Origin: Botrimarina mediterranea
GTDB taxonomy: Bacteria > Planctomycetota > Planctomycetia > Pirellulales > Lacipirellulaceae
NCBI RefSeq assembly: GCF_007753265.1
Contig: NZ_CP036349.1
Location: 1,335,363-1,399,362, forward strand
DNA: 64,000 nt
Direction of reading: 5' to 3'
The notes under the pieces were generated by a model, which had not been told where the DNA came from, did not search any database, and saw only the letters and a program-made list of their open reading frames with translations. How positions within the stretch are numbered: the first letter of the stretch is position 1; each line of letters opens with the position of its first letter. The translations under genes and the position numbers were made by a program. Shown in pieces: positions 38,303 to 55,934 of this stretch.

Positions 38303-41300
38303 ATGCATCCATTTCGAGTCGTCCGGCGGCTGCTCTCGCGCGCCCACGAGGATTGGCAAGACGCCGTTGAGGGGTTGTTCGCCGCACCGCCCCGTCGGCC
38401 AATGGGCCCGCGGCCATTACGGGTGATGCGGTTGGAGCGGCGGCGGGTGCTCAGCGCCGACTTCTCGCTGACCGCGACGGGGTTGGTGCTCAGCGGGTTC
38501 GACGACGCCGGGGGCGACACCCTGGCGGTCCAGCAGGACGGGGACGACTACCTGTTCACTAGCGGCAATGGTTGGGAGCAGCACGAGCCCAACCAGCTCC
38601 CCGAGGGAGTGACGATCGATGGCGACACGCTATCGATCGATCGTGCGTTGCTCGAAGGACTCGAGGACGGCCTGACGATCGAGGGTAGCCTCGGCCATCA
38701 GTTGGACGTGCGGCTGGGCGACGCAGACTTCTCCGGCCTGTCGGGGCCGGTGACGCTCGACGGCGTGACCTCGGTCGGTCAAGAGCAGCCCTTCGCGCTG
38801 GTGACGGCGCCGACGGACGGGTTCCAACTGATCGTCGCGCCGAGCGGCACGGTGCTGTCGAGCCTCAACGTGTCGGGCGACCTGAACATCGTCTCGATCG
38901 GCGGCTCGATCACCGACGTGTCCGGCAGCGAGATCCTCATCAGCGGCAACGCGACCTTCACCTCGCGCGCCGCGAGCCCCGCTGGCGACTTCAACGGCGA
39001 CGGCATTGTTGATGACGTGGACCGCACCGAGCACTGGGCGAAGAACTATGGCATGACGAGCGGCGCCACGAAGTACCACGGCGACGCCAACGGCGATGGG
39101 CGCGTGGACGCGGCCGACTACACGGCGTGGCGCGACACGCTCGGCCAGACGGGGCAGGGGGGGATCGAGCTGGCGAACGAGACGGGCGACCGGCTGGTGA
39201 TTGGCGGCGTGGCGACGTTCGACGCGGCGGAGCCCGAGGGGACGCACGACATCTACGTCGGCGTCGGGGGCGTGGCGGAGTTCGGCTCGGTCAACGCGTA
39301 CGGCGCGAACGTGATCATCCACGAGGACGCGACCGCGGGCGACAGTGGGCCGACGACGGTGCTGGGCAGTATCGAGGCGTATACGCTGCAGATCGAATCG
39401 GGTGGGCAGATCACTACCGCTGTCTTCGAGCCGATAACAGTGCAGGGTGACGCGTCGTTCGTCGTCACCGAGACGGCGATGATCGCCGATGGTCCGCTCG
39501 TGCAGGCGATCATTCTTAGCAGTCCATCGGCAGGCGGCATCACCCGCCGAACGATCGGCGGCGTCGCCACATTCATCGTTGAACAGCCGACGACGCCGGT
39601 TGAAGGATTTCGTGGTCCGAAGGGAATCGATGTCGGTGTTGGTTCGAACGGCCGATTCGCGGGAGGCTTCAACGCCGGGTCGCTGCGTTTCTACGCGCCC
39701 GATGCGACCGTGCGCATCGCCGAGGACAGCGACGCGGTGCTCGCAGGGTGGGGAGCGGGTGATTGGGTTGACGCCAGTGTCGCTCACACGCTCGAGCTGC
39801 AATCAAGGCTGGGGATGATCAGCGACGATGCGGACGCGGTGGTGCGGATCAGCGGCGACGCGGCGTTCTACTCTGACACGACGATGGTGCTGGCCGATGG
39901 CGGCGCGGCGAATACCTTGTCGGTCGATGGCCTCGCGACTTTCGTTCAGAATCCCGATGCGGCGGGCATCGACGTCGGCGTGACTTCGGCGGGCGCCGCG
40001 GCGGCGGCGACGTTCAATGCGGGCACGCTGCGATTTAGCTCGGAACGCGGGGCCGTCCGTATCGCCGAGGACAGCAGCACGGTGTTGGTGGGCTGGTCGA
40101 CGACGCCGGGGCCGACGGGTTTCCCCTACCTATTCTACCCGATCCCTAGCGCTCCCAGCGCCCTTGCGCTCGAGCTCACCTCGGCGGGTTCGATTACGGA
40201 TGAGGCAGACTCCTCTATCAATGTCGGCAGCGCGACCTTTGTCGCCAAGGATGAGATTGTTCTTGCCGACAGCGATCTTTTTGATCCGTTTGACACGTTT
40301 TACAATCGACTGAGGGTCTCAGGCGTCGCCACTTTCATTTCGACCGATGGCGACGACATCTCGGTCGGGGTAGGCGCGGCTGGTTCGGCGGCCGTTGCCT
40401 GGTTCGAAGCCGGGTCGATCCGCTTCGTGTCGGTGGGCGGTGATGTGCGGATCGCGGAGGACAGCAGCACGGTTCTCGCTGGCTGGGCGTCAGACACGAT
40501 CGCTCCGTCGATCCCTCTGCCAACGCCGACGATCAGCGTCGCGGGAAACCTTGAACTGTTCTCTTTTGGAACGATCGTCGACGAGCCCAATGCCGCGGTG
40601 CGCGTGGCGGGCGATGCGACTTTTGTTGCAAAGGACCAGATCGTTCTGGCGGATAGCGACACGTTTGAGAATCGAATAACTGTCTCAGGCGTCGCGACTT
40701 TCATCTCTACCGATGGTGACGGCATCTCGGTCGGGGTTGGCGGCACAGGTGCGCCCGCCGCGGCGTTCTTCCATGCGGGGTCGATTCGCTTCGTGTCGGT
40801 CGGTGGGGACGTTCGGATCGCCCAGGCCGGTAGCATCAACGCTCTGCACGGCAACATGCTGCTCGCCGATTGGGCGGCGGATTCGATTGCGCCGTCGATC
40901 CCAATTCCGACGCCGACAGCGAGCGTCGCTGAGAACCTTGAGCTCTCTGCCGTCGTCATAGCGGACGAAGCCAACGCCGTGGTCAATGTGACAGGTGATG
41001 CGACCTTTGTCGCTAGCCAGAGCATCGTGTTGGCCGATGCCGACAACCCAGGCGGCTCCAATTCTCTGACGGTCGGCGGCGTGGCGACGTTTGTCACCGG
41101 CAACTATTTTGGCGCTCTGCGAGTTGGTGCGACGGAGGATGGCGCCCCCTCTGCCGCCGTCTTCCAAGCCGGCGGCCTCCGTTTCTCCGCGCCGAACGGC
41201 GTCGTCCAGATCGCCGAGGACGACGGCACGCACTTGGTAGATTGGAGGACGACTCCGGTGTCGCCGCTCATCGTCAGGCCGCGGACGGTGACCGAGGCGC

Positions 41301-44300
41301 GGGTTATCGAACTATCAAGCGCCGGCGGCATCACCGACGCCGACGGCGCCGTCGTCTTCGCTACGGGATGGAACGGTTCGGAACGCGTTTACGGCTATAG
41401 TGGTGCAACGGCCACGTTCGTCGCCGCCGAGTCGATCACGCTCGCCGATGGCGGGGCCGACAACAAGCTGATGGTCGATGGCCTGTTGACGCTGGTTTCG
41501 ACGGCGGCTTCGGGGCAACGGATCGATGTCGGCGTCACGCCTACCGGCGGTATGGCGAATGCAGAGTTCATCGCGGGGAGCGTCCGCTTCTGGGCGCCCG
41601 AAGGCGCGGTGCGGCTTGTGGAAGACACGGCTATCAATCTTGGTGGGGCGACCTACTCCGAAAACTACGGCACGATGATCGGTAGTTGGGCGACCGGCGC
41701 CGAATCACCGCTTTTCCCGAGCTCTGTGGTCTCGAATCGGGCCGGCACACTTGACCTCGTCTCGTACTGGATTGCCGACGAGTCTAACGCGGTCGTCGAA
41801 GTCTCGGGCGACGCCGGTTTCCGAGCGATAGGTCCCTCGATTGGAAGCCCATTGATCCAACTCGCCGACGGAGGCGTCAGCAACGCGCTCCGCGTCGGCG
41901 GGGTCGCGACCTTCGTGGTCGATGCTGCGTTTGGCGTTGATGTCGGGGGGGGCATCGGATTGGCGGAGTTCGTCGCCGGTTCGTTGCGTTTCAATGCGGG
42001 GGGCGCCGTTCGCATCGCCGAGGACAGCGCGACGCACCTCGCCGACTGGGGCGGTTTGGCGGTCGGCCTGATCCGTCCCGACGCATCGATGAACCGCAGT
42101 GTGGCGGCCTCACTCGACCTTAACTCCGCCGGCGCGATCACCGACGCGGCGGACGCCAAAGTCCTGATTGCTGGCGACGCGAAGTTCACCGTCAGCACGA
42201 TCGCCAGCGTTGCGGGCCCGGCGGCGATTGTGCTTGCCGACGGCGATGCCGCGAACGAGTTGGTGGTCGGTGGGCACGCCAACTTTATCGTGAACCAAGT
42301 CCCCGCAGGAAGCCCGAAGGGGATCGACGTTGGCGTCGTCCCCGCGACCGGCGCCCCGGCGGCCGCGTTGTTTACGGCCGGCACGCTCGGCTTTAGCGCG
42401 CAGGGGGGCATGGTCCGATTGGCGGAAGACAACGACACCGTGCTCGGCGGCTTGAGCACGGCGCAGGACCTCGAGCTGTTGTCGGCGGGCTTCATCACGG
42501 ATACGGACAGCGTCACGACGGGCGAAATCGTCGCGGCGACCTCGGTCGAGGTGACGCAGACCGCCAAGCTGAAGGCCGGCCTCAACGGCGAGAACGACGT
42601 GACGCTCGGCGCGGGCGCGGCGGCGTTCAGCATGGCCGATGGCGATGGGAACAACCCCCAGCTGTTCAGCGACGCGCAGTACCTGGCGGTGCAGGCGGAG
42701 AACGTCTCGATCCACGCCGACTCGGGCGTCAACGTCCGCACGGGCGACGCGCCGCTGTCGAACCTCGACAACTACTCGCAGTTCGCCGGCACGTTCTACC
42801 TCGCCGCGACGGGGCACGTTACACAGGTGACGACCGCGGCGCCGAAGGCGCTCGCGGCGGACAAGATCTCGGTCGCGTCGGACAACGGCGCGGTGCTGCT
42901 GCGCTTGGTCGAGCTGACCAGCACGGGCACGGACCCGAACTTGCAGATCAAGTCGGGCGGCTCAGTGGCGTTGAGCCAGCCGCTGGTGGGCGGCGGCACA
43001 GTGGGCGGTAAGTTCGCCGGCTCTGATATCCCGTCGCCAACGAGCCCGGCCTTCGCGCCGGTGATCGTCGAGGCGGACGACCCGCTGACGGGCGTGCGGC
43101 CTGATATGCCCGCGCGCTCTGGCGACGAGGGCTTTGAGGACGTGCTGCTGACGGGCGGTGAGAACGCGCGGCTCTCCGAAGCGGTCCGCCTGCCGAATGG
43201 TGATTACGTCGTCGATCACTTGCTCGAGGACGGCGGGCAGACCCGCACGATCGATGACCTCTACACGATGATCGTCGTCGTCAGCGGTGACGCCAACGTC
43301 GGCGACGTTCACGATCCGAACACCGACGCGCGGCGCGACGTTGATGCGGCCGAGGCCCGCGGCGTGGCGGTCGAGGACGGCGGCAATGCGTTCCTCGCAA
43401 CGACGGCTGGCGGCGATCTGTTCTTCACCAACCGCAACCGCGAAGGGGGCGACGAACTCGACGGCATCGCGGTGCAGATGGCGGGCGGCGTCTTCACGGC
43501 GATCGCGGCCGGCACGCTGCGGATCGACACCGAGGACCCCGACAACCTCGCCACGGGCCTGCGGACAACGCGGCTCGTGAGCCGGACGGGGACCGTCACG
43601 AACGTCAACTCCGATGACCCGAATGGCTTCGGGCCGCGGGCGATCCTCGACCCTTCGACCGAAGAAGGAAACGCCGCGACGAGTGGCCTGGTGCGCGCGG
43701 ACCAGAACTTCGAGCAACGGATCACGATGGCCCTGGGGTCGCGCGGCGAGGACAACCTGCTCGTGGAAGTCGAGTGGGCCGACACGGCCGACATCCGCCA
43801 GTACAGCAACGCCAACGTCCGTCTCGCGCCCGGCCCGAACCTGCCGACCAACACGGTGGGCTCGACGGACGTGCCTGGATCGCGGCCCTATGCGGATGTC
43901 GTGCAGACGCCCGTCGAGACGATCGAGGCGAACGTCGCCGACCCCTCCGTCACGGGCTACCAGTACCAGACGCTCGCTGGCGCCAGCCGCGTGGCGACGA
44001 TCACACAGAACTACGACGAGGCGTTCGTCCCGAACAACCCGGCGCAGAACCGACTGCCGACGACGGTGCGGGTGTTCAACGACGCGGCGATCAACCTCTT
44101 CGACCAAGGGGGCGCGCGGAACCTCAACAGCGTGAGCTTCTCGATCGCGCCGCGGATCATCACGCTGCCGCCGCCGGGTTACTTCATCATCTCCGAGCCC
44201 GACCTGCCGCAGCAATACGAGCCGGTGAGCGTGACGTTGCCGCGTTCCGAGCCGACGCAAGTGACGCAGCAGACGACGCTCGACGAGGGCCGCGCCGTTT

Positions 44301-44890
44301 CGGTTTCAACCACCGAGGAAGTGTGGTACGGCCGTGTCGATGAACAGGGGGAGTGGGTCGTCGATATCCCCGGCGAGAAATGGCCGCGGATTCACGAGGA
44401 CGCCGAGGGCGACTTCCTGCGCGAGATCCGCGACAAGATCGACGAGGGCCCGTACTCGGAGGGCCGGTACGTCATCAAGGTGGTGACGCTACGCAGCGAG
44501 CAGCTGTTGGAGGAATGGGTAAAGGGGGACGATGCGGAAGCCGACGACGGAATGGCGACGAAGCCCTCCGCTGTTCCTACAACTGACGGACCTGCTGCCG
44601 AAGGGCCTGCCGAGGAAGCCGACTTACCCGCCGAAGAAGCTCGTCCTGCGACGCCCGCGGTGAACGGGCCGGTTGAGACGCCGGCTGTGGTCGCTCCGCA
44701 GGGGGCGCCGCTGGGGCTCTTGGAGCTGGAGTCGGCCCCGGTGGACGCACGCCACACGGCGCTGGCGGCGATGGCGGCGGTCGGCGTCTGGCGGCGTCGC
44801 CTTAATGACGCTGGACCGTTTACACTAGACGCTGACGGTGTGGCGTTCACCCGTGTGAAGCGGCAACGGCGCCGCCGGGGCGGTGAGTAG
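38303..44890 (+). CDS. Giant LEPR-XLL-like repeat protein
   Basis: The 2,195-residue product begins with a basic region and the motif MRLERRRVLSADFSL (about residues 42-56), which matches the LEPR-XLL signature of giant planctomycete proteins; no classical signal peptide is visible. Two EF-hand-like loops (DFNGDGIVDD and DANGDGRVDAADYTAW) lie near residues 230-275. Eight to nine repeats of about 130-150 residues follow, each with a GVATF, a DVGVG, a VRIAEDS and a GW or DW signature. The C-terminal 600 residues are different and Gly-poor, ending in an Ala/Glu/Pro-rich linker, a short hydrophobic stretch and a basic tail (RVKRQRRRRGGE). It is predicted to be exported; the route is discussed under findings. 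Confidence 0.88.
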   Translation: MHPFRVVRRLLSRAHEDWQDAVEGLFAAPPRRPMGPRPLRVMRLERRRVLSADFSLTATGLVLSGFDDAGGDTLAVQQDGDDYLFTSGNGWEQHEPNQLPEGVTIDGDTLSIDRALLEGLEDGLTIEGSLGHQLDVRLGDADFSGLSGPVTLDGVTSVGQEQPFALVTAPTDGFQLIVAPSGTVLSSLNVSGDLNIVSIGGSITDVSGSEILISGNATFTSRAASPAGDFNGDGIVDDVDRTEHWAKNYGMTSGATKYHGDANGDGRVDAADYTAWRDTLGQTGQGGIELANETGDRLVIGGVATFDAAEPEGTHDIYVGVGGVAEFGSVNAYGANVIIHEDATAGDSGPTTVLGSIEAYTLQIESGGQITTAVFEPITVQGDASFVVTETAMIADGPLVQAIILSSPSAGGITRRTIGGVATFIVEQPTTPVEGFRGPKGIDVGVGSNGRFAGGFNAGSLRFYAPDATVRIAEDSDAVLAGWGAGDWVDASVAHTLELQSRLGMISDDADAVVRISGDAAFYSDTTMVLADGGAANTLSVDGLATFVQNPDAAGIDVGVTSAGAAAAATFNAGTLRFSSERGAVRIAEDSSTVLVGWSTTPGPTGFPYLFYPIPSAPSALALELTSAGSITDEADSSINVGSATFVAKDEIVLADSDLFDPFDTFYNRLRVSGVATFISTDGDDISVGVGAAGSAAVAWFEAGSIRFVSVGGDVRIAEDSSTVLAGWASDTIAPSIPLPTPTISVAGNLELFSFGTIVDEPNAAVRVAGDATFVAKDQIVLADSDTFENRITVSGVATFISTDGDGISVGVGGTGAPAAAFFHAGSIRFVSVGGDVRIAQAGSINALHGNMLLADWAADSIAPSIPIPTPTASVAENLELSAVVIADEANAVVNVTGDATFVASQSIVLADADNPGGSNSLTVGGVATFVTGNYFGALRVGATEDGAPSAAVFQAGGLRFSAPNGVVQIAEDDGTHLVDWRTTPVSPLIVRPRTVTEARVIELSSAGGITDADGAVVFATGWNGSERVYGYSGATATFVAAESITLADGGADNKLMVDGLLTLVSTAASGQRIDVGVTPTGGMANAEFIAGSVRFWAPEGAVRLVEDTAINLGGATYSENYGTMIGSWATGAESPLFPSSVVSNRAGTLDLVSYWIADESNAVVEVSGDAGFRAIGPSIGSPLIQLADGGVSNALRVGGVATFVVDAAFGVDVGGGIGLAEFVAGSLRFNAGGAVRIAEDSATHLADWGGLAVGLIRPDASMNRSVAASLDLNSAGAITDAADAKVLIAGDAKFTVSTIASVAGPAAIVLADGDAANELVVGGHANFIVNQVPAGSPKGIDVGVVPATGAPAAALFTAGTLGFSAQGGMVRLAEDNDTVLGGLSTAQDLELLSAGFITDTDSVTTGEIVAATSVEVTQTAKLKAGLNGENDVTLGAGAAAFSMADGDGNNPQLFSDAQYLAVQAENVSIHADSGVNVRTGDAPLSNLDNYSQFAGTFYLAATGHVTQVTTAAPKALAADKISVASDNGAVLLRLVELTSTGTDPNLQIKSGGSVALSQPLVGGGTVGGKFAGSDIPSPTSPAFAPVIVEADDPLTGVRPDMPARSGDEGFEDVLLTGGENARLSEAVRLPNGDYVVDHLLEDGGQTRTIDDLYTMIVVVSGDANVGDVHDPNTDARRDVDAAEARGVAVEDGGNAFLATTAGGDLFFTNRNREGGDELDGIAVQMAGGVFTAIAAGTLRIDTEDPDNLATGLRTTRLVSRTGTVTNVNSDDPNGFGPRAILDPSTEEGNAATSGLVRADQNFEQRITMALGSRGEDNLLVEVEWADTADIRQYSNANVRLAPGPNLPTNTVGSTDVPGSRPYADVVQTPVETIEANVADPSVTGYQYQTLAGASRVATITQNYDEAFVPNNPAQNRLPTTVRVFNDAAINLFDQGGARNLNSVSFSIAPRIITLPPPGYFIISEPDLPQQYEPVSVTLPRSEPTQVTQQTTLDEGRAVSVSTTEEVWYGRVDEQGEWVVDIPGEKWPRIHEDAEGDFLREIRDKIDEGPYSEGRYVIKVVTLRSEQLLEEWVKGDDAEADDGMATKPSAVPTTDGPAAEGPAEEADLPAEEARPATPAVNGPVETPAVVAPQGAPLGLLELESAPVDARHTALAAMAAVGVWRRRLNDAGPFTLDADGVAFTRVKRQRRRRGGE

Positions 44891-44908
44891 GGCCGGGGTC
44901 AAACTGTA

Positions 44909-44987
44909 GGAGGGGTCTCCAGACCCCGATTGCGGTCTCCATTCCGAAACGGCATGGTGCGCGTCATCGGGGTCTGGAGACCCCTCC
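44909..44987. repeat. Inverted repeat with 22-bp perfect arms after the giant gene
   Basis: GGAGGGGTCTCCAGACCCCGAT (22 bp; 44909-44930) and its complement at 44966-44987. Each arm holds an inner palindrome GGGGTCTCCAGACCCC. It separates the giant gene from the adaptor operon and could attenuate read-through. Confidence 0.85.
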
Positions 44988-45032
44988 CACAATTGACTGC
45001 CCCTCAGGGCACGCATTGAAGGCAAACAGTCG

Positions 45033-46886
45033 ATGACGGATGTCGACGCATTCTTGGACGACCTCGACCGCCTCGCCACGACGGCGGCGACTGACGATGC
45101 TGCGGCGTTCTACCGCCAGTTACTGCCCGCTGCGTCGATGGCGATTGGCGCCGACGCGGCCGAGTATGTCGCGTCCGCGGGCGCCGTGGATCATCGGCCG
45201 CAGCGTTGGAACCTGACGGGCCCGCTGGTCGAAGCCGACAGGGTTCAGCGGGTCCGCCTCGACGGCATGCCGCGCGTCGTGCCGGGGCTCGACGGCGAGC
45301 CGGTGGTCGCTGTGCCTGTCGAATCGGCGAGCGGCCCGGTGGGCGTGATCGCCTTCCGGCTGGGCGACAGCGCGGCGACGCCCGAGCGCAGCATCGAGCT
45401 GGCCGCCGCGGTCGCGGAGATCGCGGGACGTTACGAGTTGCGTTGCGAGTCGGGCCGTGTGCAGAGAGCCCAGACGCGGTTGGCGCGGATCGAGAAGCTG
45501 CTGGTGCGGCTCCACTCGAAGCGGGGCCTCCGGCCGATCGCGCACGAGGCGGCGGAGCAGGGGCGTTTGGCGGCCGGATGCGACCGGTTGTCGGTGCTGA
45601 CGCCGACCGCGGGCGGGTGGCGGATCGTCACGGTGAGCGGCGTCGCACAGGTGAGTCGACGCAGCGACGCGGCCCGCGCGATCGAGCGGATCGCCAACGC
45701 GGCGCTGCGTGGCGGCGAGCCGCTTCGCTACCCCAGCGAGGACGGCCGACCGTTGTCGCCTCCGATCGCCGACGAAGTCGATCGCTACTGCGAGGCCTCG
45801 GGCGTCCGCGCGTTGCGGGTGCTGCCGTGCGTCGCCCCCGCCGACGGGGATTCACAGGACGACGCGCCGCGGCTGGCGATGCTCGCCGAATGGTTCGACG
45901 GGGCGGTCGATAATGAAGGCGACGCGATGCTGGCGGCGCTCGCACGGCACATGGGCGTCGCGGCGATGCGAGACCGCTCGGGTGGTTGGGGCTGGGCGCC
46001 GCTGAGCCGCACAGCGACAGCGCTGGCGGTTGTCGGGCTGTTGTTGGCGGCGGTTGTGTTCGCGCTAGTGACGCCGGCGACGTTGTGGCTGCAAGTGGAT
46101 GGGCGCTTCGAGCCGGTGGACCAGGCGCGTGTCTTCGCGCCGCTCGATGGCGTCGTTCGTGAGGTACTCGTCAAGCAAGCCGACCAAGTGAGCCGGGGGC
46201 AGCCGCTGGTGCGGCTCGAATCGCCCGACCTGCAACTGAAGCAGGAAGAGGTCGCCGAGGCGATCGCGGCGACGCAATCGGAGATCGCTTCCCTGGAGAC
46301 CGAGAAGCTCCGCGCGTCACTCCCCGGCCGCGGCGAGGACCGGGAGGACGCGACGACGATCGCCAGCCGCGCGGCGGCGTTGCGCGAGCGGCTCAGCCAT
46401 CAGCAGAAGCAGCGGGAGCTGCTCGAGGCGGAGGCGGCGAAGCTCCTCGTCACCAGCCCGATCAAAGGTGATGTCGTCAGCTGGCGACCGGAGGATTACC
46501 TCGCCGACCGGCCGGTGCGGCGGGGGCAGCGGCTGCTGGAGGTGGCGGCGGACGGCCACTGGCGGCTAGAGCTAGAGGCGCCCGACCACCGCGTCGGGCC
46601 ACTGCTGCGGGCCCAAGCGACGGGCGAGCCGCTGCGGGTCGAGTACGTGGTCCGTTCGGACCCCGCCCAGACGCACACGGCCGTGGTGACGGCGATTGCC
46701 GACGCCACCCAGACCGACGAGGAGGGGAGTCCGGTTGTGCGGGTCGTAGCGGACCCCGCCGACGCAGCCGTGGCGAATCCTCGCAGTGGGCTGGGGGTCT
46801 CGGCTAAGATCGATTGCGGCACCCACTCCCTCGCCTATGTCTGGCTGCATGAAGCGATCGACGCGATCCGCCGCCGCTGGTTCTGA
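45033..46886 (+). CDS. GAF-like/HlyD-type membrane fusion protein
   Basis: The 617-residue product has an unusual N-terminal half of about 320 residues that is soluble and holds a GAF-like region (about 150-315). A membrane segment lies at 327-349. The C-terminal 270 residues are a HlyD-type adaptor: a biotinyl-lipoyl-like domain (VFAPLDGVVREVLVKQADQV, GQPLVRLE), a coiled coil (about 395-465, SEIASLETEKL, LSHQQKQRELLEAE), and a second half-motif (LLVTSPIKGDVVSW). The orientation puts the GAF part in the cytoplasm. It overlaps the following HlyD gene by 38 nt. No transporter gene is adjacent. Confidence 0.85.
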   Translation: MTDVDAFLDDLDRLATTAATDDAAAFYRQLLPAASMAIGADAAEYVASAGAVDHRPQRWNLTGPLVEADRVQRVRLDGMPRVVPGLDGEPVVAVPVESASGPVGVIAFRLGDSAATPERSIELAAAVAEIAGRYELRCESGRVQRAQTRLARIEKLLVRLHSKRGLRPIAHEAAEQGRLAAGCDRLSVLTPTAGGWRIVTVSGVAQVSRRSDAARAIERIANAALRGGEPLRYPSEDGRPLSPPIADEVDRYCEASGVRALRVLPCVAPADGDSQDDAPRLAMLAEWFDGAVDNEGDAMLAALARHMGVAAMRDRSGGWGWAPLSRTATALAVVGLLLAAVVFALVTPATLWLQVDGRFEPVDQARVFAPLDGVVREVLVKQADQVSRGQPLVRLESPDLQLKQEEVAEAIAATQSEIASLETEKLRASLPGRGEDREDATTIASRAAALRERLSHQQKQRELLEAEAAKLLVTSPIKGDVVSWRPEDYLADRPVRRGQRLLEVAADGHWRLELEAPDHRVGPLLRAQATGEPLRVEYVVRSDPAQTHTAVVTAIADATQTDEEGSPVVRVVADPADAAVANPRSGLGVSAKIDCGTHSLAYVWLHEAIDAIRRRWF

Positions 46887-47790
46887 GTTGCTCCTGCTCG
46901 GGGCGATGCTGCTGGCGTGGTGTCCCGCGGTAACGCTCGCCGAGACGATCGAGGTCGCGTCGTCGATCCTGACGGTGAGCGAGACAGTCAAAGTTCCAGC
47001 GCCCGAGGCCGGCGTGCTGCGCGAGCTCGTCGTGCATGAGGGGATGCGGCTCGAACAAGGCGCGACGATCGGCGAGGTCGACGCGCGCGAGCAGCAGCTG
47101 TCGGCCGAAGTGATCGAGCAAGACCTGGCGATCGCGCGGAGCGAGTCGGAGAGCGACGTCCGCGTCCGCCTCGCCGCGAAAGAGAACAAAGTCGCCGAGG
47201 CCGAGCTGAAGCGGGCCACGTCGATCAACGCCGAGCTGCCCAACACGGTCTCGACCAAAGAGGTCGAGCGGTTGCGGTTGACGATGGAGAAGTCGGAGCT
47301 CGAGATCGAGTTCGCTAATTTCGAACGCGATCTGCTGGCCGCGAAGCTGGGCCGTATCGAGGCCGACCTGCGGCTTGCGCAGCACCAGGTCGAGAAAATG
47401 CGGGTCACCTCGCCGATCGGCGGCGTTGTCGCCGAGCTGTTCTGCGAGGCGGGTGAGTGGGTCGATGCGGGCGAGCCGATCGCGCGGCTGGTGCGGGTGG
47501 ATCAGTTGCGCGTCGAGGGCTTTGTGGGCATCGACGACGCGCTCGCCGGGTTGGTGAACCGTCCCGTCGTTGTCGAGGCCCTGCTGCCCAGCGGCGAGAC
47601 GATCAAAGCCGAAGGCCGCGTCGTGTTCGTGAGCCCCGAGGCTGAGCCCGTGGACGCCAAGGTGCGGTTCTGGGCCGAAGTCGATAACAGCGCGATGCGG
47701 CTGCGGCCGGGCCTGACGGCGCGGGTGATGATCCTCGACGCCGCCGCGGGCGACGCGCCCGTGCAGCCGGCGGCTTACTTCGCGAACTGA
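46849..47790 (+). CDS. Periplasmic adaptor (HlyD/RND-type membrane fusion protein)
   Basis: The 313-residue product has an N-terminal hydrophobic signal or anchor (LLLLGAMLLAWCPAVTLA), then lipoyl half-motifs (VPAPEAGVLRELVVHEGMRLEQG and MRVTSPIGGVVAELFCEAGEW), a long coiled coil (about 75-160) and beta-barrel region up to the C terminus. This is the layout of HlyD or RND adaptors. ATG at 46849 lies inside the end of the preceding GAF/HlyD gene, so the two are translationally coupled; the longer frame from 46786 is not needed. It is followed after 12 nt by the M50 peptidase gene. Confidence 0.88.
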   Translation: MKRSTRSAAAGSELLLLGAMLLAWCPAVTLAETIEVASSILTVSETVKVPAPEAGVLRELVVHEGMRLEQGATIGEVDAREQQLSAEVIEQDLAIARSESESDVRVRLAAKENKVAEAELKRATSINAELPNTVSTKEVERLRLTMEKSELEIEFANFERDLLAAKLGRIEADLRLAQHQVEKMRVTSPIGGVVAELFCEAGEWVDAGEPIARLVRVDQLRVEGFVGIDDALAGLVNRPVVVEALLPSGETIKAEGRVVFVSPEAEPVDAKVRFWAEVDNSAMRLRPGLTARVMILDAAAGDAPVQPAAYFAN

Positions 47791-47802
47791 AGTGAGCGTG
47801 CC

Positions 47803-49968
47803 GTGAGCCAAGCCAGTTGGTTGACGCGAGGCCGTCTGCGAGCCCGGCGCGATTTGATGCTCAGCGCCAGCGGCGACGCGACGGTGGTCAAAGACCCCTT
47901 GTCGCTGGAGTACTTCCGGCTCGGCGACCGTGAAGGCTTCTTGCTCCGCACGCTGCGCGACCCGATGACGGTGGCCGAGCTGACGCGGCGGTTCCAGCGG
48001 CAGTTCCCCAACGAGCGCGCGACGGGCGAGCAGGTGCTCGGCTTCTGCGCGTCGCTCTACGACTGCTCGCTGTTGTTGTCGGACGCCGCGACCGAGCCGC
48101 GCAAGCCATCGGGCAAAGCGCCTTGGTACGCGACGCTGATGAGCCCGCTGGCGATCCGCTTGCCGGGTGTTGATCCGACGCCGCTGCTCGGCGTGCTGCG
48201 GCCGCTTGGGTCGCTGCTGTTCGGCAGGGCGTTCGCCGTGACGCTGCTGGTGGCGACGCTGGTCGTCGGTATGGGGTTGCTTGGCAGGGCCGAGGAACTG
48301 ACGATTGAACTGCGGCGGATGCTCGATCTGTTCAGCCCGATGCACGCCCTGATGGCGGTGCTGGCCGTGGTTGTGGTGAAGGCGTGGCACGAACTGGGGC
48401 ACGCGATTGCTTGCCGGCGGATGGGCGCCGAGTGCCACGAAGTGGGCGTGCTGCTGCTGGCGTTCTTGCCGTGCCTGTATTGCGACGTGTCCGACGCCTG
48501 GTCGCTGAGTAGCCGCTGGCGACGCGCGACCGTCGCGCTCGGCGGCGTGTACTTCGAGTTGATGCTCGCCGTCGCGGCCGGCGCCGCGTGGCTAGTGCTC
48601 GCGCCGGGGCCGCTGCGGGCGCTGAGCCTGTACGTGGTGGTGGTCGCGTCGGTCTCGACGCTGCTCGTGAACCTCAACCCGCTGATGCGTTATGACGGCT
48701 ACTACCTGCTCGCCGACGCCTGGGGCGTCGCCAACCTGCACGCCCAGAGCCGTGAGGCGTTGTGGGGTCCGCTGCGGCGCTGGGTGCGCGGCGATCGTAG
48801 CGAGCCCGAACCGCTCGACGCTTCGCCCGGAGCGTTGGCGGCATATGGGATGGCGTCGATCGTTTACGGCTGGTTCATCTTGGCGTTGATCCTGTGGGGG
48901 CTGCACCACGCCCTCTCGGCGGCGGGCTTTCGCGCCGTGGGGGACTTGCTCGTGGCGTTGTCGATGGGTGGTTTGGCGTTGGTTGGCGTGCGCTGGTTTG
49001 GCGGACTCGTGCCGCGGACGGCTGGCGGGCGCTCGCCGGGCGGCTTCGTGCGCTTTGGCGTTGTTGCCGCGCTGACGGCGCTGGTGTTCTACGGCGTTGC
49101 GTCGTGGCCGATCGATCAGACGCTCTACAGCACGTGCCGTGTTGAGAACGCCGTGTTCGCGGATGTCGTCGCGCGGAGCCCTGGGGTGTTGCGGCCGCAG
49201 GTGCGTTACGGCGAAGTGGTCGAGGCGGGCCAACTGATTGCCGAGATCGAAGACACCAGCGCCGACCTCCGGCGACTCGAACTGCTGCAGCGCGAAGCGG
49301 AGACCGCTGTCGAGATCGCTGGCCTGCAGACACGTTCGCAACGCGACGCCAAGCTGCTGGCGGAGATCGCTCGGCTGGAGCCGACGCTCGCCGAGGTCCG
49401 CCGACAGCTGCGTTCGCACGACGAGCTGACCGAACGCCGCCGCCTGCGGGCGCCGATCGCCGGCCGTGTTGATCCACCGGTCAAGCTCGCCGCCGACAAC
49501 GCCAGCGAAACCAAGACGGGCGACCTGCCGACTTGGAGCGGCGCGCCGCTTGATCCGCCGAACGGCGGGTGCTGGCTCGACTCGGGCGAAACGGTCTGTC
49601 GCGTCGCGGGGGACGGCTTGCGTGTTGTGCTGCTCCTAAGCGAGGACGATAGCGGCCTCGTGCGGGTGGGGGACCCGGTACGAATCGCCCTCGACCGGGC
49701 GCCGGCGGCGGTGCTGGCGGGCCGAGTCGAAGGGGTCGCGCTCGCCGCGGCCGACGAGGCGATCGGAGACCAGGAGCGGCTGCTGGAGAAATCGCTGCGG
49801 TCGCCGCTGCAGAAGGGCGCCGTGTATCGGGTCAGCGTCGGGCTGCTGGACGCCTCGCCGCCGGAGCTCCAAGCCGGGGCGATCGGCCAGGCGCGGGTGG
49901 TGACCGGTCGGGAGACGCTCGGTGGGTGGGCGTACCGCTGGCTCCGCCGGCTGGTGCGGTTCGGTTAG
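47803..49968 (+). CDS. PqqD-like/M50 site-2-type peptidase/HlyD fusion
   Basis: The 721-residue product combines three parts. The first 95 residues resemble a PqqD-like winged-helix (LEYFRLGDREGFLLRTLRD and following VAELTRRFQ). A multi-pass membrane metalloprotease follows, with zinc motif HELGH at 196-200 and the second motif NPLMRYDG at 292-299. The C-terminal part (about 450-720) is HlyD-like, with lipoyl half-motifs and a coiled coil (LRRLELLQREAETAVEI). Such M50 fusions occur in peptide and bacteriocin export systems of the YydH type. GTG at 47803 is the start. It is the third gene of a close operon, and no ABC or RND pump is present. Confidence 0.9.
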   Translation: MSQASWLTRGRLRARRDLMLSASGDATVVKDPLSLEYFRLGDREGFLLRTLRDPMTVAELTRRFQRQFPNERATGEQVLGFCASLYDCSLLLSDAATEPRKPSGKAPWYATLMSPLAIRLPGVDPTPLLGVLRPLGSLLFGRAFAVTLLVATLVVGMGLLGRAEELTIELRRMLDLFSPMHALMAVLAVVVVKAWHELGHAIACRRMGAECHEVGVLLLAFLPCLYCDVSDAWSLSSRWRRATVALGGVYFELMLAVAAGAAWLVLAPGPLRALSLYVVVVASVSTLLVNLNPLMRYDGYYLLADAWGVANLHAQSREALWGPLRRWVRGDRSEPEPLDASPGALAAYGMASIVYGWFILALILWGLHHALSAAGFRAVGDLLVALSMGGLALVGVRWFGGLVPRTAGGRSPGGFVRFGVVAALTALVFYGVASWPIDQTLYSTCRVENAVFADVVARSPGVLRPQVRYGEVVEAGQLIAEIEDTSADLRRLELLQREAETAVEIAGLQTRSQRDAKLLAEIARLEPTLAEVRRQLRSHDELTERRRLRAPIAGRVDPPVKLAADNASETKTGDLPTWSGAPLDPPNGGCWLDSGETVCRVAGDGLRVVLLLSEDDSGLVRVGDPVRIALDRAPAAVLAGRVEGVALAAADEAIGDQERLLEKSLRSPLQKGAVYRVSVGLLDASPPELQAGAIGQARVVTGRETLGGWAYRWLRRLVRFG

Positions 49969-50192
49969 CCCCGCAGCTCGCTAAATGGGCTGGAATAGTG
50001 GCTATTCCCGTGAGGGGTTTGCCGCGGATTCGATTAAAATGAGGGGCCTGGATGACGCTGCGCTGGTGTCAAGCCGAGCGAAGCAAGACGCTTCGCCCCC
50101 CTCCCGAAGTGGGAGGGGAACGACACGGCTTCCGCACCCAAGAGTTCCGATCCGTTTCCACTCGGCAGACCTCGCCCGAGGACTCCACGATC

Positions 50193-53100
50193 ATGAAGTG
50201 TCCGCACTGTAGCGCCGAGATCACGTCGGAGACGCTCAAGGGGACCGGCGACTTGTTCTGCCCTGCGTGTGGCGGGCCGCTCGCCGACTCGCTGGAGTTG
50301 GGGGGGCTGTCGAGCTTGGGCGGCGCGCCGGCGGATTCGACAATGCGGCCCGACTCGGGAGAGGGCTCGGGGGTTGGCTCGGGCGCGGGCGGTTCAAGCT
50401 TTGCCGCTTCGGGTTTCGCGGACAGCGAGTCGATATCGATCGAGCCGCCGTCGTCGCGGGACGATACGGACGCGACGATGCAGGCGGCGGACGGCGAGCC
50501 CTCGCACGACGAGTTCGACAGCCTCGATGAGGACAATGCCGACAACGACAACGACGTGACGATGGCCTTCGGGGAGCGTCAACGCAACGAGGAGGACTCC
50601 GAGGACCTGATCCTGCTCGGTGGTGACGACGACGAGAGCGACGCTTTCGATATGGACGGCCGCAGCCCGGGCGAGAGCCTCGACGCGACAGTCGACTTCG
50701 GGCGCTTCGCACGCATCGAGTCGGAAGAGTCCGATGTCGATGGCGGCCTGGCGGGCGCCGACATGACGATGGCGTTCGACGGCAAGCCGAACTTGGCGCC
50801 ACGGCAGATCGTTCCGCCGAGTGACTCGGATAGCGAACCAGAGCCGACGCAGATCCTTGGCGTTCCGCCGATGATCGGGGGCAAGCCCCAGCAGCGTCAG
50901 CAACCTAACGACGCCACGATTGCCGCCGACAGTGATAAGGGCGTTTCGGACTCGAGCCTCGGCAAGTCGAGCGATGCGGGCTCTGATGAGGGTTCAGGGC
51001 GTGAGGGGGCGGCGCGGGATTCGGCTCAGGGCGACCGCACCGAGTCGCCCAGCACGCACGCCGAGGGTTCGCAGTCGGACCGCGACTCCGCGACGCTGGC
51101 GTTCGACTCCGAGCGTCGCAGCGACCGCGTTCCGACGCCCGAGCCGCTCGACATCACCGGGCTGTCGAGCGGCGGCACGATCCCGCGCGGCCCGCTAGAG
51201 CGTGGCCAGGGCACGCGGATGCTCAAACCGGGCGAGTCGCAGATCGTTGGCGACGAGTCGGTGCGGCTGCGGGCGTTCGAGCTCGCCGACACCAGCGCGA
51301 CAGACCCGCTGGTGATCGACTACGCCATCGAGGGCGAGGCGGGCAAGGGCGGCATGGGCGTCGTCTACAAGGCGCGGCAGCAGTCGCTGAACCGGCTCGT
51401 CGCGATCAAGCAGATCAAGTCGGAGCTCGGCGCCAGCGTCTCGGACTGCAACAAGTTCATCAGCGAAGCGGTGATCACCGGCCAGCTCGAGCACCCGAAC
51501 ATCGCGCCGGTTCACGACCTGGGCCTGGCGTCGGACGGCCTGCCGTTCTACGCGATGAAGTTCGTCGAGGGGCAGGACTGGGAGGACTCGGTCAAGTCGC
51601 TCAGCGAAGAAGAGAACCTGTCGATCCTGATCCAGGTCGCGCAGGCGATCGCGTTCGCGCACTCCAAGAACGTGATCCACCGCGACCTCAAGCCGGGCAA
51701 CGTGCGCCTCGGGGCGTTCGGCGAGGTGCTGGTGATGGACTGGGGGCTGGCGGCGCGGCTCGAAGAGGGCGCCGAGATCCAGCCCGCGGGCACGCCGATC
51801 TACATGCCTCCCGAGACGGCGCTGGAGTACCTCGATTACGCCAAGGGCCGCGTCGTCGGCAAGCGGGTGGAGTCGTCGCGGCGCCGGATCCCCGCCGGCA
51901 AGTACTGCGACGTTTACCTGCTGGGCGCGCTGCTCTTCAAGATCGTGACGGGTCGGGCGCCGCACCGCGGCAAGACGACGTTCGAGTGCCTCCGCGCGGC
52001 GGCGAAGAACGAGATCGTCAAGGTGAAGCGTTCGAGCGAGCTGCTCGATATCGCGTACAAGGCGATGGCGACCGACCCCGAGAACCGGCATGCGTCGGCG
52101 CTCGAGTTCATCGACGCGATCAAGTCCTATCAGGCGCACGCGCAGAGCATCAAGATCGCGAAGCGGGCGTCGCAAGAGCTGCGCGCGGCGGAGACGCTGC
52201 TCGAGTCCCCCGGCGCGAGTGCGACCGAGGTCTACGCTTGCTACTCGCGCGCCCAGCACGGTTACCAGAACGCGCTGGAGCTATGGAATGAGAACAACAA
52301 GGCCCGCCGGCGGCTGAAGCGGACGCTGCGGAACTTCGCCGAGGCGGCGTACCAGAACGGCGACTACGACCTGGCGCTGTCGCACCTGGACGAGGAGAAC
52401 GAAGCGGACGCCGAGCTCCGTGGGCAAGTTCTCAAGGACCAGGAATCTCGGCGGTCGCGGCTCGCTTGGTTCAAGACATTGCAGTACGCGACGGCGGCGT
52501 CGCTGATGGTGGCGTTGGGGTTTATCGGCTACAGCATCGTCTTGAAGCAGGACGCGATTAGCCTCGCCAACCAGCTGACGACGCAGACCGACCTGCTGGC
52601 GAAAACAGTCGAAGAGGCTAAGGCGGCGGAGCTCGTCGCCAGTACGGCAAAGCGAGAGGCCGAGACCGCGAAGAGCGAGGCGATCATCGCGAAAGGGGAA
52701 GCGGCAACGGCGATTGACGAAGCCGAGGCGGCGAAAGGGGAGGCGTTGATCGCTAAGCAAGACGCCCAGGCGGCTTTGGAAGAGGCGGCGGTCGCCAAGG
52801 ACGACGCCAAGCTTGCGAAGGACGAGGCGGTTGTCGCCCAGCGGGAGGCCGCCGAGCAGAGCTACTACGCCGCCCTCGGCAAAATTCGCGCGACGCTCGC
52901 CGACGACGGCGCCTACGCCGCGTGGCTGGAGATGCAGAAGGCCGAGGACGCGATCCCGCCCGAGCGGACGCAGGACGTCGAGTGGGTCTCGTTGAAGCGG
53001 ACCGTTGATTGGCGATCGGAAGCCGAGGAGCTGGTCGCGGCCGGCGCCGAAAAGAAGGAGACGTTCGCGGCGGCTTCGGCCGACGGCGCCGTGTTCGTCA

Positions 53101-55934
53101 CGGCGGCTAACCGCCCGCAAGGCGGCGTCGAACTCGCGGTCTATCGCGACGGCGCGAAAGAGCCCGCGGACCGTTTCGCCGTTCCCGGCGCTGCGGCTGC
53201 CGTTGTGGTCGATCCACAAGGGCGGTACGTGGCGCTCGTTGGCGAAGGGCTGCGTCTGGTCGACCTCACCGCGAAGCAGGTGATAGAGGCTGCGGACATC
53301 GGCCAAGCGACGAGCGTGGCGTTCCACCCGACCAAGGCGGAGTTGCTCGTCGGCGATAGGGATTCAGTGGTAAGCCGCTGGTCGTTCGTCGATGGCGAAT
53401 TGACGCGCGTCGTTGAAGACCCGGTCTTCAACGACGGCGCGATCACGGCGGTCGGCTTTTCGCCGGATGGCACGCAGCGGTTTGCCGCTGATGAGAAGGG
53501 CCGCGTCGTGTTGTACCGTTCGCGCGACGGCCAGACGCTCGACGAGCGCGAGACGTACTCGCACGAGGCGTCCGAGTCGAGCAACGCCTATGTCACCGCG
53601 GCGGCGATGGCCGACGACGCCGACGGCCGGCTGGTCTTTGGTTGCTCGGACGGCACGGTCTACGAGATCGCCGGTTGGTGGCCGCCACAAGAGGCCGGCG
53701 TCATCGACGCAATGACCGCACTGCGACGGCCCGACCCAGCGCCACGCATCGACGGCTCGGACTATCTCGACGCCCGGCCGACGCGGCTCCGTGCGCTGCA
53801 CACGTCGGCAGTGAGCCAGGTCACGTACGCGGACGGGGGCAAGTTGGTGCTCTCCGCGGGCGGCGACACGCTGCTGGTGCAAGGGTCACCGAGCGCGTCG
53901 CGGGAAACGGGGTTCAAAGTCGAGCGGCGGTACCACAACGCGCCGATCACGTCGCTTGCCGTTGGGCCCGAGGGCTTCGCCTATAGCGCCGACGAGAAGG
54001 GCCGCGTCTTGCGTTGGGAGATCGCGGCGCCGCTCGAGCAGTTGGCCCTCGAGGCGCCCGACAACGCGGCGGTGGCGGCCGTGTCGTTCGACGCCGACGC
54101 CGAGCGGCTCGCCGTCGCCGACGCCGCGGGGTTCGTCCACCAGTGGGCCGACGTCACCAAGCCCGATGAACGGACGACGCTGTTCGCGGGGCACGCCGAC
54201 AATCGTGGCATGCAGGCGTGGCGGTTGGGTGGGGACGACCCGGTCATCCTCACCGTCGCGTCGGAAGAACGCCTCGCCATCGACGCGGAAGGCAACCCAC
54301 GACGGGTCACCGCCAACCGAGCTTGTGTTTGGGGCGGGGAAGACGGCTTGCTCCGCCGCTCAATCGACCTCGGCGAGCGCCTCGTTGTGGCGTGCGACAC
54401 GGAACGGCGTGTGCTTTTGGCGGCCTGCTCGGGCCGTCTGCTCGACGCCAGCGACAAGCAGGCGGTGGCGTTGGCCTACGATCTCGACACGCCCGACGTG
54501 ACGCCGTTGTGGACGGAGCGGGCGCGGGTGTCAGCGATTGAACCGTTGCCACTGGGCGCTCCGCACGACGCGACGGTCGCCGTCGGTTTGCGTGATGGGC
54601 AGGTATTCTTGTGGAGCGAGTCGGCGGGCCGTGTCGAGCTGGTCCGCTCCTCGCTGCGGCCGCACTGGCGCCCGATCCGCTCGCTGGCGTATGACGTCGC
54701 GTCGCAACGGCTGTACTCGGGCGACAACAACGGCATGATCGCGGCATGGCCCGTCGCGGGCGGCGACGCGGTGACGACGCGTCTGCGCGACGAGACGAAG
54801 TCCAACGTCGCCCCGGTCGTGAGGCTGTCTACCGCTCCGAGGGGGCGGTTGCTCGCGCTGCAGCGGCACGCCAACGGCCTGGTGACGCCGTTTTTGCTGG
54901 GTGACGACCTGCACGTGATCGGCGAGCTGCCCGACGCGCTCGACGCCTCGATCGATCATGCCACGGGCGACGTTGTCGTCGCTAAGCGCGACGGCGCCGA
55001 GGTGGTCCTTGAATCTCAGCGACGCGATGAGGCGGGCGGCTGGACGCCAACAGCGAGAGCCGAGTCGTCGCAACGGTTGTCGAGAGTCGCTGTGAAAGAC
55101 GATGGCTGGCTAGCATGGGGCGGGGGCGTCGTCGAGTGGCGGCCGATCACGGGCGGGCGTCACGACGTGGCGACGCGCGTTGAATCCCGGTCGGCGCCGG
55201 TGGCGATCGTTGCCGACTCGGCCGACAGTTCGCTTGCCGCGATGACGGCGGGCGGTCTGCTCGACACCTGGAACGCCAGCGGTGAGCTGAGCGACCAACG
55301 CGCGATGGGGTTGCCGGGCCGGCTCGCCGCGGCGTGCCAGATTGGCGACGGGGGTGACTGGCTGGTGGCGACGCAACAGGCGAACGGCCTGACGAGGGTC
55401 GATCGCTGGGAGGCGGACGCCCAACGCATCGTCGCCGAAGTCGCTAGCGGCCTGCGGGGCGAGTGCCGCGCCCTCGCCACGGCGGCGGGCGTGGCGATGA
55501 TCGGGCTGCCCGACCGGGTCGTCGTGGCGTCTGTCGATGGGGATTCAGCGCAGGACCTCGGCTTGCCCGCCGCTCCGGCAGCGATCGCCGCTCGACCGGA
55601 CGGCGCCGCCTTTGTCGTCGTGACGGCGACGGGCGACGCTTGGGTCGCGACCGAACGCGATGGCGGCTGGCGGCTAGCGTCTCTCGACGTGACCGACGTC
55701 ACCTCGGCCGCGTACACGCCCGACGGCGACCGACTATTGGTAGGCGTCCAGAGCGGCCGCGTCGTGCTGCTGGAACTCGACGACAAGGGCGGACCCGTGG
55801 TGTCGTCGCGCACGCTGCTGACGTTCGTCGGCCACAACGACCGCGTCGTGCGGATCGACGCGCAGCCTACGCCCGAGGGCGTGTCGGTGGTGAGCGGCGA
55901 CGCGTCGGGCCGGGTGATCGTGCGGCGGATCTAG
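50193..55934 (+). CDS. Giant Ser/Thr protein kinase with zinc ribbon and beta-propeller
   Basis: The 1,913-residue product begins with a zinc ribbon (C3, C6, C23, C26), a Glu/Asp/Ser-rich disordered stretch, then a Hanks-type kinase (about 375-670): Gly loop GKGGMGVVY near 380-388, AIKQIK with the Lys, HRDLKPGN near 496-503 and DWG in place of DFG. A membrane helix lies near 765-787. After it comes an Ala/Lys/Glu heptad-like tract (about 806-890) and a long beta-propeller region with WD40-like repeats to the C terminus. The DWG variant is common in planctomycete kinases and the catalytic Asp of HRD is kept. ATG at 50193 begins the zinc ribbon. It lies 225 nt after the M50 gene. Confidence 0.93.
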   Translation: MKCPHCSAEITSETLKGTGDLFCPACGGPLADSLELGGLSSLGGAPADSTMRPDSGEGSGVGSGAGGSSFAASGFADSESISIEPPSSRDDTDATMQAADGEPSHDEFDSLDEDNADNDNDVTMAFGERQRNEEDSEDLILLGGDDDESDAFDMDGRSPGESLDATVDFGRFARIESEESDVDGGLAGADMTMAFDGKPNLAPRQIVPPSDSDSEPEPTQILGVPPMIGGKPQQRQQPNDATIAADSDKGVSDSSLGKSSDAGSDEGSGREGAARDSAQGDRTESPSTHAEGSQSDRDSATLAFDSERRSDRVPTPEPLDITGLSSGGTIPRGPLERGQGTRMLKPGESQIVGDESVRLRAFELADTSATDPLVIDYAIEGEAGKGGMGVVYKARQQSLNRLVAIKQIKSELGASVSDCNKFISEAVITGQLEHPNIAPVHDLGLASDGLPFYAMKFVEGQDWEDSVKSLSEEENLSILIQVAQAIAFAHSKNVIHRDLKPGNVRLGAFGEVLVMDWGLAARLEEGAEIQPAGTPIYMPPETALEYLDYAKGRVVGKRVESSRRRIPAGKYCDVYLLGALLFKIVTGRAPHRGKTTFECLRAAAKNEIVKVKRSSELLDIAYKAMATDPENRHASALEFIDAIKSYQAHAQSIKIAKRASQELRAAETLLESPGASATEVYACYSRAQHGYQNALELWNENNKARRRLKRTLRNFAEAAYQNGDYDLALSHLDEENEADAELRGQVLKDQESRRSRLAWFKTLQYATAASLMVALGFIGYSIVLKQDAISLANQLTTQTDLLAKTVEEAKAAELVASTAKREAETAKSEAIIAKGEAATAIDEAEAAKGEALIAKQDAQAALEEAAVAKDDAKLAKDEAVVAQREAAEQSYYAALGKIRATLADDGAYAAWLEMQKAEDAIPPERTQDVEWVSLKRTVDWRSEAEELVAAGAEKKETFAAASADGAVFVTAANRPQGGVELAVYRDGAKEPADRFAVPGAAAAVVVDPQGRYVALVGEGLRLVDLTAKQVIEAADIGQATSVAFHPTKAELLVGDRDSVVSRWSFVDGELTRVVEDPVFNDGAITAVGFSPDGTQRFAADEKGRVVLYRSRDGQTLDERETYSHEASESSNAYVTAAAMADDADGRLVFGCSDGTVYEIAGWWPPQEAGVIDAMTALRRPDPAPRIDGSDYLDARPTRLRALHTSAVSQVTYADGGKLVLSAGGDTLLVQGSPSASRETGFKVERRYHNAPITSLAVGPEGFAYSADEKGRVLRWEIAAPLEQLALEAPDNAAVAAVSFDADAERLAVADAAGFVHQWADVTKPDERTTLFAGHADNRGMQAWRLGGDDPVILTVASEERLAIDAEGNPRRVTANRACVWGGEDGLLRRSIDLGERLVVACDTERRVLLAACSGRLLDASDKQAVALAYDLDTPDVTPLWTERARVSAIEPLPLGAPHDATVAVGLRDGQVFLWSESAGRVELVRSSLRPHWRPIRSLAYDVASQRLYSGDNNGMIAAWPVAGGDAVTTRLRDETKSNVAPVVRLSTAPRGRLLALQRHANGLVTPFLLGDDLHVIGELPDALDASIDHATGDVVVAKRDGAEVVLESQRRDEAGGWTPTARAESSQRLSRVAVKDDGWLAWGGGVVEWRPITGGRHDVATRVESRSAPVAIVADSADSSLAAMTAGGLLDTWNASGELSDQRAMGLPGRLAAACQIGDGGDWLVATQQANGLTRVDRWEADAQRIVAEVASGLRGECRALATAAGVAMIGLPDRVVVASVDGDSAQDLGLPAAPAAIAARPDGAAFVVVTATGDAWVATERDGGWRLASLDVTDVTSAAYTPDGDRLLVGVQSGRVVLLELDDKGGPVVSSRTLLTFVGHNDRVVRIDAQPTPEGVSVVSGDASGRVIVRRI

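Follow-up and report, generated by a model that had tools for sequence, protein, structure and literature searches.

The window analysed here, a stretch of 64,000 nucleotides of the Botrimarina mediterranea genome (G000:C1:1335363-1399362), lies inside a single contig of 5.87 Mb (at 1.335-1.399 Mb) and carries on its + strand a cluster of five consecutive genes (38303-55934), encoding a giant repeat protein, a GAF-HlyD protein, a HlyD-type periplasmic adaptor, an RRE-M50-HlyD fusion protein and a Ser/Thr kinase-WD40 protein. We consider it likely that this cluster is a cargo-dedicated copy of a SecA/M50/HlyD/TolC export module, with the giant as the proposed cargo. By sequence, the cluster is characterized by a giant that occurs in a single copy and combines conserved ends with exchangeable repeats; it goes with M50 fusions of one particular subtype, a pair of HlyD adaptors and a kinase-WD40 protein; in many relatives the set also includes TolC and a small secreted protein. 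From this we infer that the giant may be exported, that a motif near its N-terminus may be recognized by the RRE fold of the M50 fusion, and that it may be cleaved.

Linkage of giant and M50 genes

A match to the M50 fusion could be identified in 58 of 59 related genomes. In a tree of 94 M50 proteins, 36 (including that of the window) belong to subtype B, 42 to subtype A and four each to subtypes C and D; the remaining eight were left unassigned and are in neither the B nor the A count. Of the places with an M50 match, an initial 80 were fetched, and some others later, and the counts given here cover the fetched places. A model of the C-terminal region of the giant, which includes five sequences of the window group and therefore finds those by construction, identified a giant gene in 38 of the 59 genomes, never more than one per genome. 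Giant and M50-B are found together in 35 genomes and are both missing from 19, three of which belong to the same family as the window genome, while two genomes have M50-B only (in both cases at a contig end) and three have the giant only. Fisher's test on these counts, in which kinship was not corrected for, gives a p of 2e-10, or 3e-10 without genome G027, whose broken M50 was put in subtype B by position and not by the tree. In the giant-bearing genomes G048, G050 and G054 the M50s were left unassigned or fall outside subtype B. The two genes are also close to each other, as 28 of the 38 giants lie within 14 kb of an M50-B gene, in all 28 cases on the same strand.

In a wider test, the C-terminal model identified giants in 80 of 297 genomes of the class. 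An out-of-sample set was formed by 63 previously unused giant-bearing genomes, all of which have an M50 and which were chosen by the C-terminal model alone. These contain 67 giant matches, 37 of them on the same contig as one of the listed M50s, whatever its subtype. At least 18 matches lie within 35 kb of the M50, a limit that was fixed before the distances were seen, compared to about 1.6 expected for an assumed genome of 7.2 Mb, and the figure of 18 may be low; 14 of these 18 near pairs are co-directional. The link between giant and M50 across genomes is strong, not universal, and weaker out of sample. A preliminary description of this DNA had inferred a dedicated secretion or trimming module for the giant, and had set beforehand a statistical link between giants and adaptor genes as its genomic-context check. 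Such a link was found in the 59 genomes, and again in the 63 further genomes and on the plasmids described below, and its recurrence argues for a module of this kind.

M50 subtypes and their gene neighbourhoods

Within 12.5 kb, TolC was found at 23 of the 36 B loci and at none of the 42 A loci, a relative of the kinase-WD40 protein at 26 B loci and again at no A locus, and a LEPR-type or giant gene of at least 500 residues at 26 B loci (in one of which, that of G025, the gene is no giant) versus three A loci; the neighbours of subtype A are under-sampled in these comparisons, since 41 of the 42 A loci have less than 3.2 kb on one side, compared to 11 of the 36 B loci. For subtype C, a LEPR-type gene was found by three of the four loci. 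A fairer control was provided by named genomes, partially overlapping with the 59, in which flanks of up to 10 kb on each side were taken where the contig allows. Among the 80 loci of this set, 22 are B-like and 58 A-like by score. TolC was found by ten B-like loci and the small protein with the PLYFEE signature by six, both being absent from all 58 A-like loci, and a LEPR-type gene of at least 400 residues by six B-like versus three A-like loci. The six include loci of Rhodopirellula baltica (L209) and of an uncultured Schlesneria (L178).

A frequent gene order at B loci is TolC (divergent), GAF-HlyD, HlyD, M50, often the small secreted PLYFEE protein, giant and kinase-WD40. The order in the window group differs in that the giant comes first. 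As both gene orders keep it, the gene set stays together despite the changed order.

The PLYFEE family of small secreted proteins (PLYFEExNxERYGY...CVYTLGHYRPG) matches in 57 of the 59 genomes, mostly twice in each, and the one member tested had no Pfam match. The three adaptor/M50 genes occur a second time in the window genome (G000:C1:4883271-4888883, L001:9269-14884), there with neither giant nor TolC beside them. This copy adjoins a divergent gene of 583 residues without a Pfam match, relatives of which are found by 28 of the 42 subtype-A loci. A further subtype is represented by L110 and L111, where a longer M50 fusion (about 830 residues) lies beside TolC and no giant was seen.

Related modules on proteobacterial plasmids

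With the window M50 as query, mostly partial matches to plasmids were obtained, and matches to a subtype-C M50 were used instead. This query matched 80 records, 25 of them with at least 80% coverage; 30 were listed and 21 loci were fetched. A protein of more than 2,000 residues is encoded beside the M50 module at 19 of these 21 loci, the two others being those of R. johnstonii, where the match lies at the start of the record and is not judgeable, and Phyllobacterium, with a neighbour of 1,417 residues. The longest annotated plasmid giant has 16.2 thousand residues, and two are named LEPR-XLL by NCBI. One recurring gene order is giant, DUF3467, HlyD, PqqD/M50, SecA-like, HlyD and TolC.

A second proteobacterial form (L254, L263, L267, L268, L269) has the order giant-TolC-HlyD-HlyD-M50, the giants being annotated as DUF4347, Ig-like or tandem-95 proteins; their motif is of the type LEPRxMFDAA, and no SecA is annotated in the stretch. 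The M50 query also matches 18 Escherichia and 8 Citrobacter plasmid records.

Composition of the gene cluster

The giant (38303..44890, + strand as for all features below) has 2195 residues and was delineated from its open reading frame and its homologous C-terminal family. Eight internal repeats (39668..42394) could be counted by the pattern F-x-A-G-x-[LIV]-[RG]-F. Its N-terminus lacks a strongly hydrophobic stretch, the top 19-residue mean within the first 150 residues being 1.12 on a measure of hydrophobicity only. A conserved C-terminal unit (43988..44887), recognized by profile comparison and alignment, consists of a domain, a low-complexity linker, a short segment of weak hydrophobicity and a tail of basic residues. 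The C-terminal 300 or so residues are related across the giants of B loci (profile comparison probability 94, E 9e-8, 274 columns, 12% identity), whereas the middle regions are unlike, with PKD repeats in the one giant scanned and another type of repeat in the window giant. The structure model of the C-terminal part is too weak for naming a fold (predicted local distance difference test score, pLDDT, 59).

The GAF-HlyD protein (45033..46886, 617 residues) is supported by its open reading frame, Pfam and relatives, and has a GAF-type part at the N-terminus followed by a periplasmic adaptor part. The window copy matches GAF weakly (GAF_3, E 0.026); Pfam GAF matches 11 of 28 family members, with a best E of 1.2e-11, so that the earlier term GAF-like holds for the family and only weakly for this copy. 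The gene of the HlyD-type adaptor (46786..47790, start uncertain within 46786-46888; open reading frame, Pfam/NCBIfam) overlaps with its 5' end the GAF-HlyD gene, and the N-terminus of its product is signal-peptide-like as judged by eye. After a gap of 12 nt follows the gene of the RRE-M50-HlyD fusion (47803..49968, 721 residues; open reading frame, Pfam/NCBIfam and structure model). HlyD domains were identified in all three of these genes, and Peptidase_M50 in the last, with Pfam/NCBIfam. The open reading frames with their overlap and spacing, these domains, and the giant as a repeat protein had all been given correctly in the preliminary description. The gene of the Ser/Thr kinase-WD40 protein (50052..55934, 1960 residues; domain scan, relatives by M50-B loci) had been overlooked, and with it the cluster reaches to 55934.

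The structure model of the M50 fusion was built on 32 sequences (mean pLDDT 83) and combines three known folds, i.e. an RRE, a site-2 protease and a MacA adaptor. Residues 10-96 (47830..48090) have a predicted RRE/PqqD-like leader-peptide-binding fold, with the best similarity to the RRE of TbiB1 with its leader peptide (5v1v; Z 11.3, 87 residues aligned of 88, 2.6 Å) and to 6jx3 (Z 10.0). The Pfam sequence model for PqqD matches none of the 32 members at E 0.01, and thus the proposed likeness to PqqD is borne out by fold and not by that model. The site-2-protease core (residues 175-310, 48325..48732) resembles an RseP orthologue over residues 175-308 (7w6y; Z 10.7, 131 aligned, 3.2 Å), and its HExxH motif (H196, E197 and H200 in residues 196-200) and D298 are invariant in all 32 fusions. 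The MacA-like periplasmic adaptor part (residues 415-711, 49045..49935) matches 9qgy_G (Z 16.1, 243 aligned, 5.8 Å).

A scan for promoters and terminators yielded no promoter and eight terminator-like sites, compared to 9.7 by chance, none of the latter in the gaps 44890-45033 and 49968-50052. Directly upstream of the cluster, a gene (34136-38056) encodes a repeat protein of 1,306 residues of the type V secretion system (T5SS)/PEP-CTERM kind, which shows 15 stretches of repeats and, weakly, a dockerin-like match. This gene was rejected as a member of the set, because in G001, G003 and G013 no relative of it immediately precedes the giant.

Secondary SecA and TolC

No ABC transporter could be identified among the genes of the window cluster, to which the search was confined, ABC genes elsewhere in the genome not being searched, and there is no SecA in the cluster either. 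The earlier remark that no pump is present here is correct to that extent, yet it missed a candidate elsewhere in the genome. A second, short SecA (open reading frames mostly of 640-760 residues), as read from open reading frame size and score, was found in 56 of the 59 genomes, with fragments only in G021. In the window genome it is located at G000:C1:3562242-3563447 (3.56 Mb), unlinked to the cluster. Secondary SecA genes lie near the M50 fusion in G043, G045, G046, G049 and G056, and the loci of G043 and G046 also hold LEPR-type giants, of 2,204 and 4,491 residues, respectively. On the plasmids, SecA_DEAD was found in all five tested genes adjoining M50s, the annotations of which vary between translocase, helicase, prepilin peptidase, SecA and hypothetical. 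The secondary SecA, encoded elsewhere in the window genome and beside M50 in relatives, is probably the missing pump.

The best TolC of the window genome (G000:C1:1457246-1459174, 833 bits) also lies outside the cluster; it is a neighbour of a PLYFEE-type protein at 1.455-1.459 Mb, about 65 kb beyond the cluster. In this region (L232, G000:C1:1455066-1462998) the two are found beside a response-regulator-like and a sensor-kinase-like gene. As judged by eye, several B loci likewise have genes behind TolC whose ends are histidine-kinase-like.

The LEPR-type motif

The giant contains the motif LERRRVLSA at residues 44-52 (38432..38458), preceded by a basic stretch, and a similar motif is present near the N-terminus of relatives and of the proteobacterial giants; we propose it as a recognition signal. 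The LEPR-XLL (NF012209) and Planc_extracel (PF07595) proteins are likewise mostly large and have an N-terminal motif of the LExRxLL type behind a basic stretch. Unlike these, the 150 N-terminal residues of the giant gave no match up to E 10 to the curated model NF012209 (cut-off 17 bits), and its locus is not among the 20 places found with PF07595 up to E 10. As NF012209 does not match it, we call the giant LEPR-XLL-like, as in the preliminary description, and not LEPR-XLL. A paper of 2004 reportedly dealt with motifs of R. baltica.

In planctomycete giants, the motif was found in 24 of 29 cases (two of the 29 apparently with a miscalled start) compared to 6 of 1129 other genes, a count that is partly circular, as the giants were first gathered by adjacency and most of them via a loose motif search. 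On the plasmids, the loci of which were not selected by motif, the pattern [LFIM]ExRx[LMIV][LFM][SDNA][AG] occurs near the N-terminus of 10 of the 12 giants with a readable start, versus 1 of 297 other genes, the exact pattern having been written after these N-termini had been seen. The single other gene, from the Caballeronia locus, is possibly a fragment of a giant. This count omits R. johnstonii, five giants whose 5' end is open (Rhodobacteraceae M382, Pseudohalocynthiibacter, Rhizobium WSM1274, Ensifer and Azospirillum ramasamyi) and those with an unsure start (Indioceanicola, Caballeronia and R. beringeri). The motif is missed in Alisedimentitalea and Phyllobacterium, and two of the ten motif-bearing giants are near-identical Azospirillum proteins.

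Beside these reservations about both counts, several observations weigh against the giant as dedicated cargo and the motif as its signal. Many LEPR-motif proteins of the genome are not encoded near the module, and in G024 (86% complete) seven weak LEPR matches were obtained, with no M50, secondary SecA or giant seen; for these reasons the LEPR motif alone does not require this machine. The use of any LEPR-motif protein as a marker of the module was likewise rejected, since there are several such proteins per genome, mostly not adjoining the module. Genome G044 has an M50-A and no second SecA. In two cases giant and M50-B share a contig but are separated by 36 and 132 kb, and in five they are on different contigs. 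Out of sample, 19 of the 37 contig-sharing matches lie more than 35 kb from the M50, and genus g74 has 13 giants without any M50 nearby, nine of them sharing a contig with one at a nearest distance of 380 kb. No LEPR-type gene is seen at 9 of the 15 named B-like loci with at least 3 kb on both sides. The planctomycete C-terminal family was not found in the plasmid giants. Finally, contact between the RRE fold and a leader, as well as cleavage, are guesses.

Relation to known systems and alternative explanations

As described by Kamneva, Poudel and Ward (2015, PMC4452313), a secondary SecA occurs together with M50, HlyD and GAF-HlyD proteins in Planctomycetes, Verrucomicrobia, Proteobacteria and a small number of other groups. 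These authors propose the M50 protein as pore and SecA as ATPase, call the biological role completely unknown, and report that an OEP gene is sometimes nearby, that an ABC transporter is absent and that some SecA genes are not co-encoded. M50-HlyD, HlyD and GAF-HlyD are also found together here, the GAF part being shown via relatives and weak in the window copy, whereas the window locus lacks SecA and additionally has the giant as candidate cargo, the kinase-WD40 protein and the RRE fold on the M50. Since some SecA genes are not co-encoded according to that paper, we classify the window cluster as a variant of this module. In a term search, giant, LEPR and PqqD were absent from the main text of PMC4452313; LEPR-XLL was found in two papers, with a single mention in each, and the passage in PMC10868602 touches on it in passing. 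In the open-access literature searched, no publication was found that joins the SecA/M50/HlyD module to giant or LEPR proteins, and the assignment of the giant as its cargo appears to be new.

The window M50 shares its RRE fold and M50 core with systems for the maturation of ribosomally synthesized and post-translationally modified peptides (RiPPs), such as those of daptides (NF041824) and YydH/LiaK (NF058609), and its core matches NF041824 with an E of 1.3e-47. This match is under the curated cut-off, as is the case for both models, the M50 is fused to an adaptor, and the proposed cargo is a giant protein and not a small peptide. The likeness would nevertheless suit M50/HlyD genes with another substrate for export or maturation, be it a small peptide or an envelope factor, with the giant co-located only as a fellow surface gene in a conserved neighbourhood, and so would the common subtype-A copy of the three genes with no giant of this C-terminal family beside it. 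We regard such an arrangement as quite improbable, since M50-B and giant are both present or both absent in 54 of the 59 genomes, the set is kept in two gene orders, and related M50s adjoin giants in proteobacteria. It is still more improbable that the locus merely provides adaptors to ordinary type I secretion (HlyB-HlyD-TolC) with an ABC transporter encoded elsewhere. HlyD and TolC parts are indeed common to both systems, TolC lying outside the window cluster, but the cluster has no ABC transporter, the RRE-M50-HlyD fusion occupies the inner-membrane place, and the ATPase adjoining the plasmid M50s is SecA-like in the five cases tested.

The module could also have no role in export and trim or release the giant at the membrane once a different route has brought it across. 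The intact protease residues in all 32 fusions fit such a role, as does a giant that ends in a weakly hydrophobic segment and a basic tail. We consider this unlikely all the same, because three HlyD-type parts and a linked TolC would be unneeded for trimming alone, a secondary SecA is linked to M50 in several relatives, and the hydrophobicity of the giant's tail is weak.

Proposed mechanism and implications

Under the reading that we prefer, that of a cargo-dedicated export module, the M50 fusion would bind the N-terminal LEPR-type segment of the giant in the cytosol by means of its RRE fold, and the secondary SecA would drive the chain either through the membrane domain of M50 or alongside it. 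Passage across the periplasm would then fall to the adaptors and TolC, and the M50 site would cut the leader or else an end that is held in the membrane. The basic tail at the C-terminus may retard or anchor the last part of the chain, and the GAF part and the kinase are probably regulatory. More tentatively, it is quite possible, although not to be presumed, that the LEPR-type segment serves as leader peptide in a distinct secretion system for giant proteins, powered by SecA and dependent on TolC. The RRE fold would read this leader and the site-2 protease would cut it, and the system would be common to Planctomycetota and Pseudomonadota, being in part divided into copies dedicated to their cargo.

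How bacteria export proteins of 2,000-16,000 residues that lack a standard signal peptide is an open problem, and the module described in 2015 had no assigned cargo. The recurring pair of giant and M50 joins both problems and gives that module its likely cargo. If this is true, the principle of leader binding by an RRE would reach from small peptides to giant proteins.

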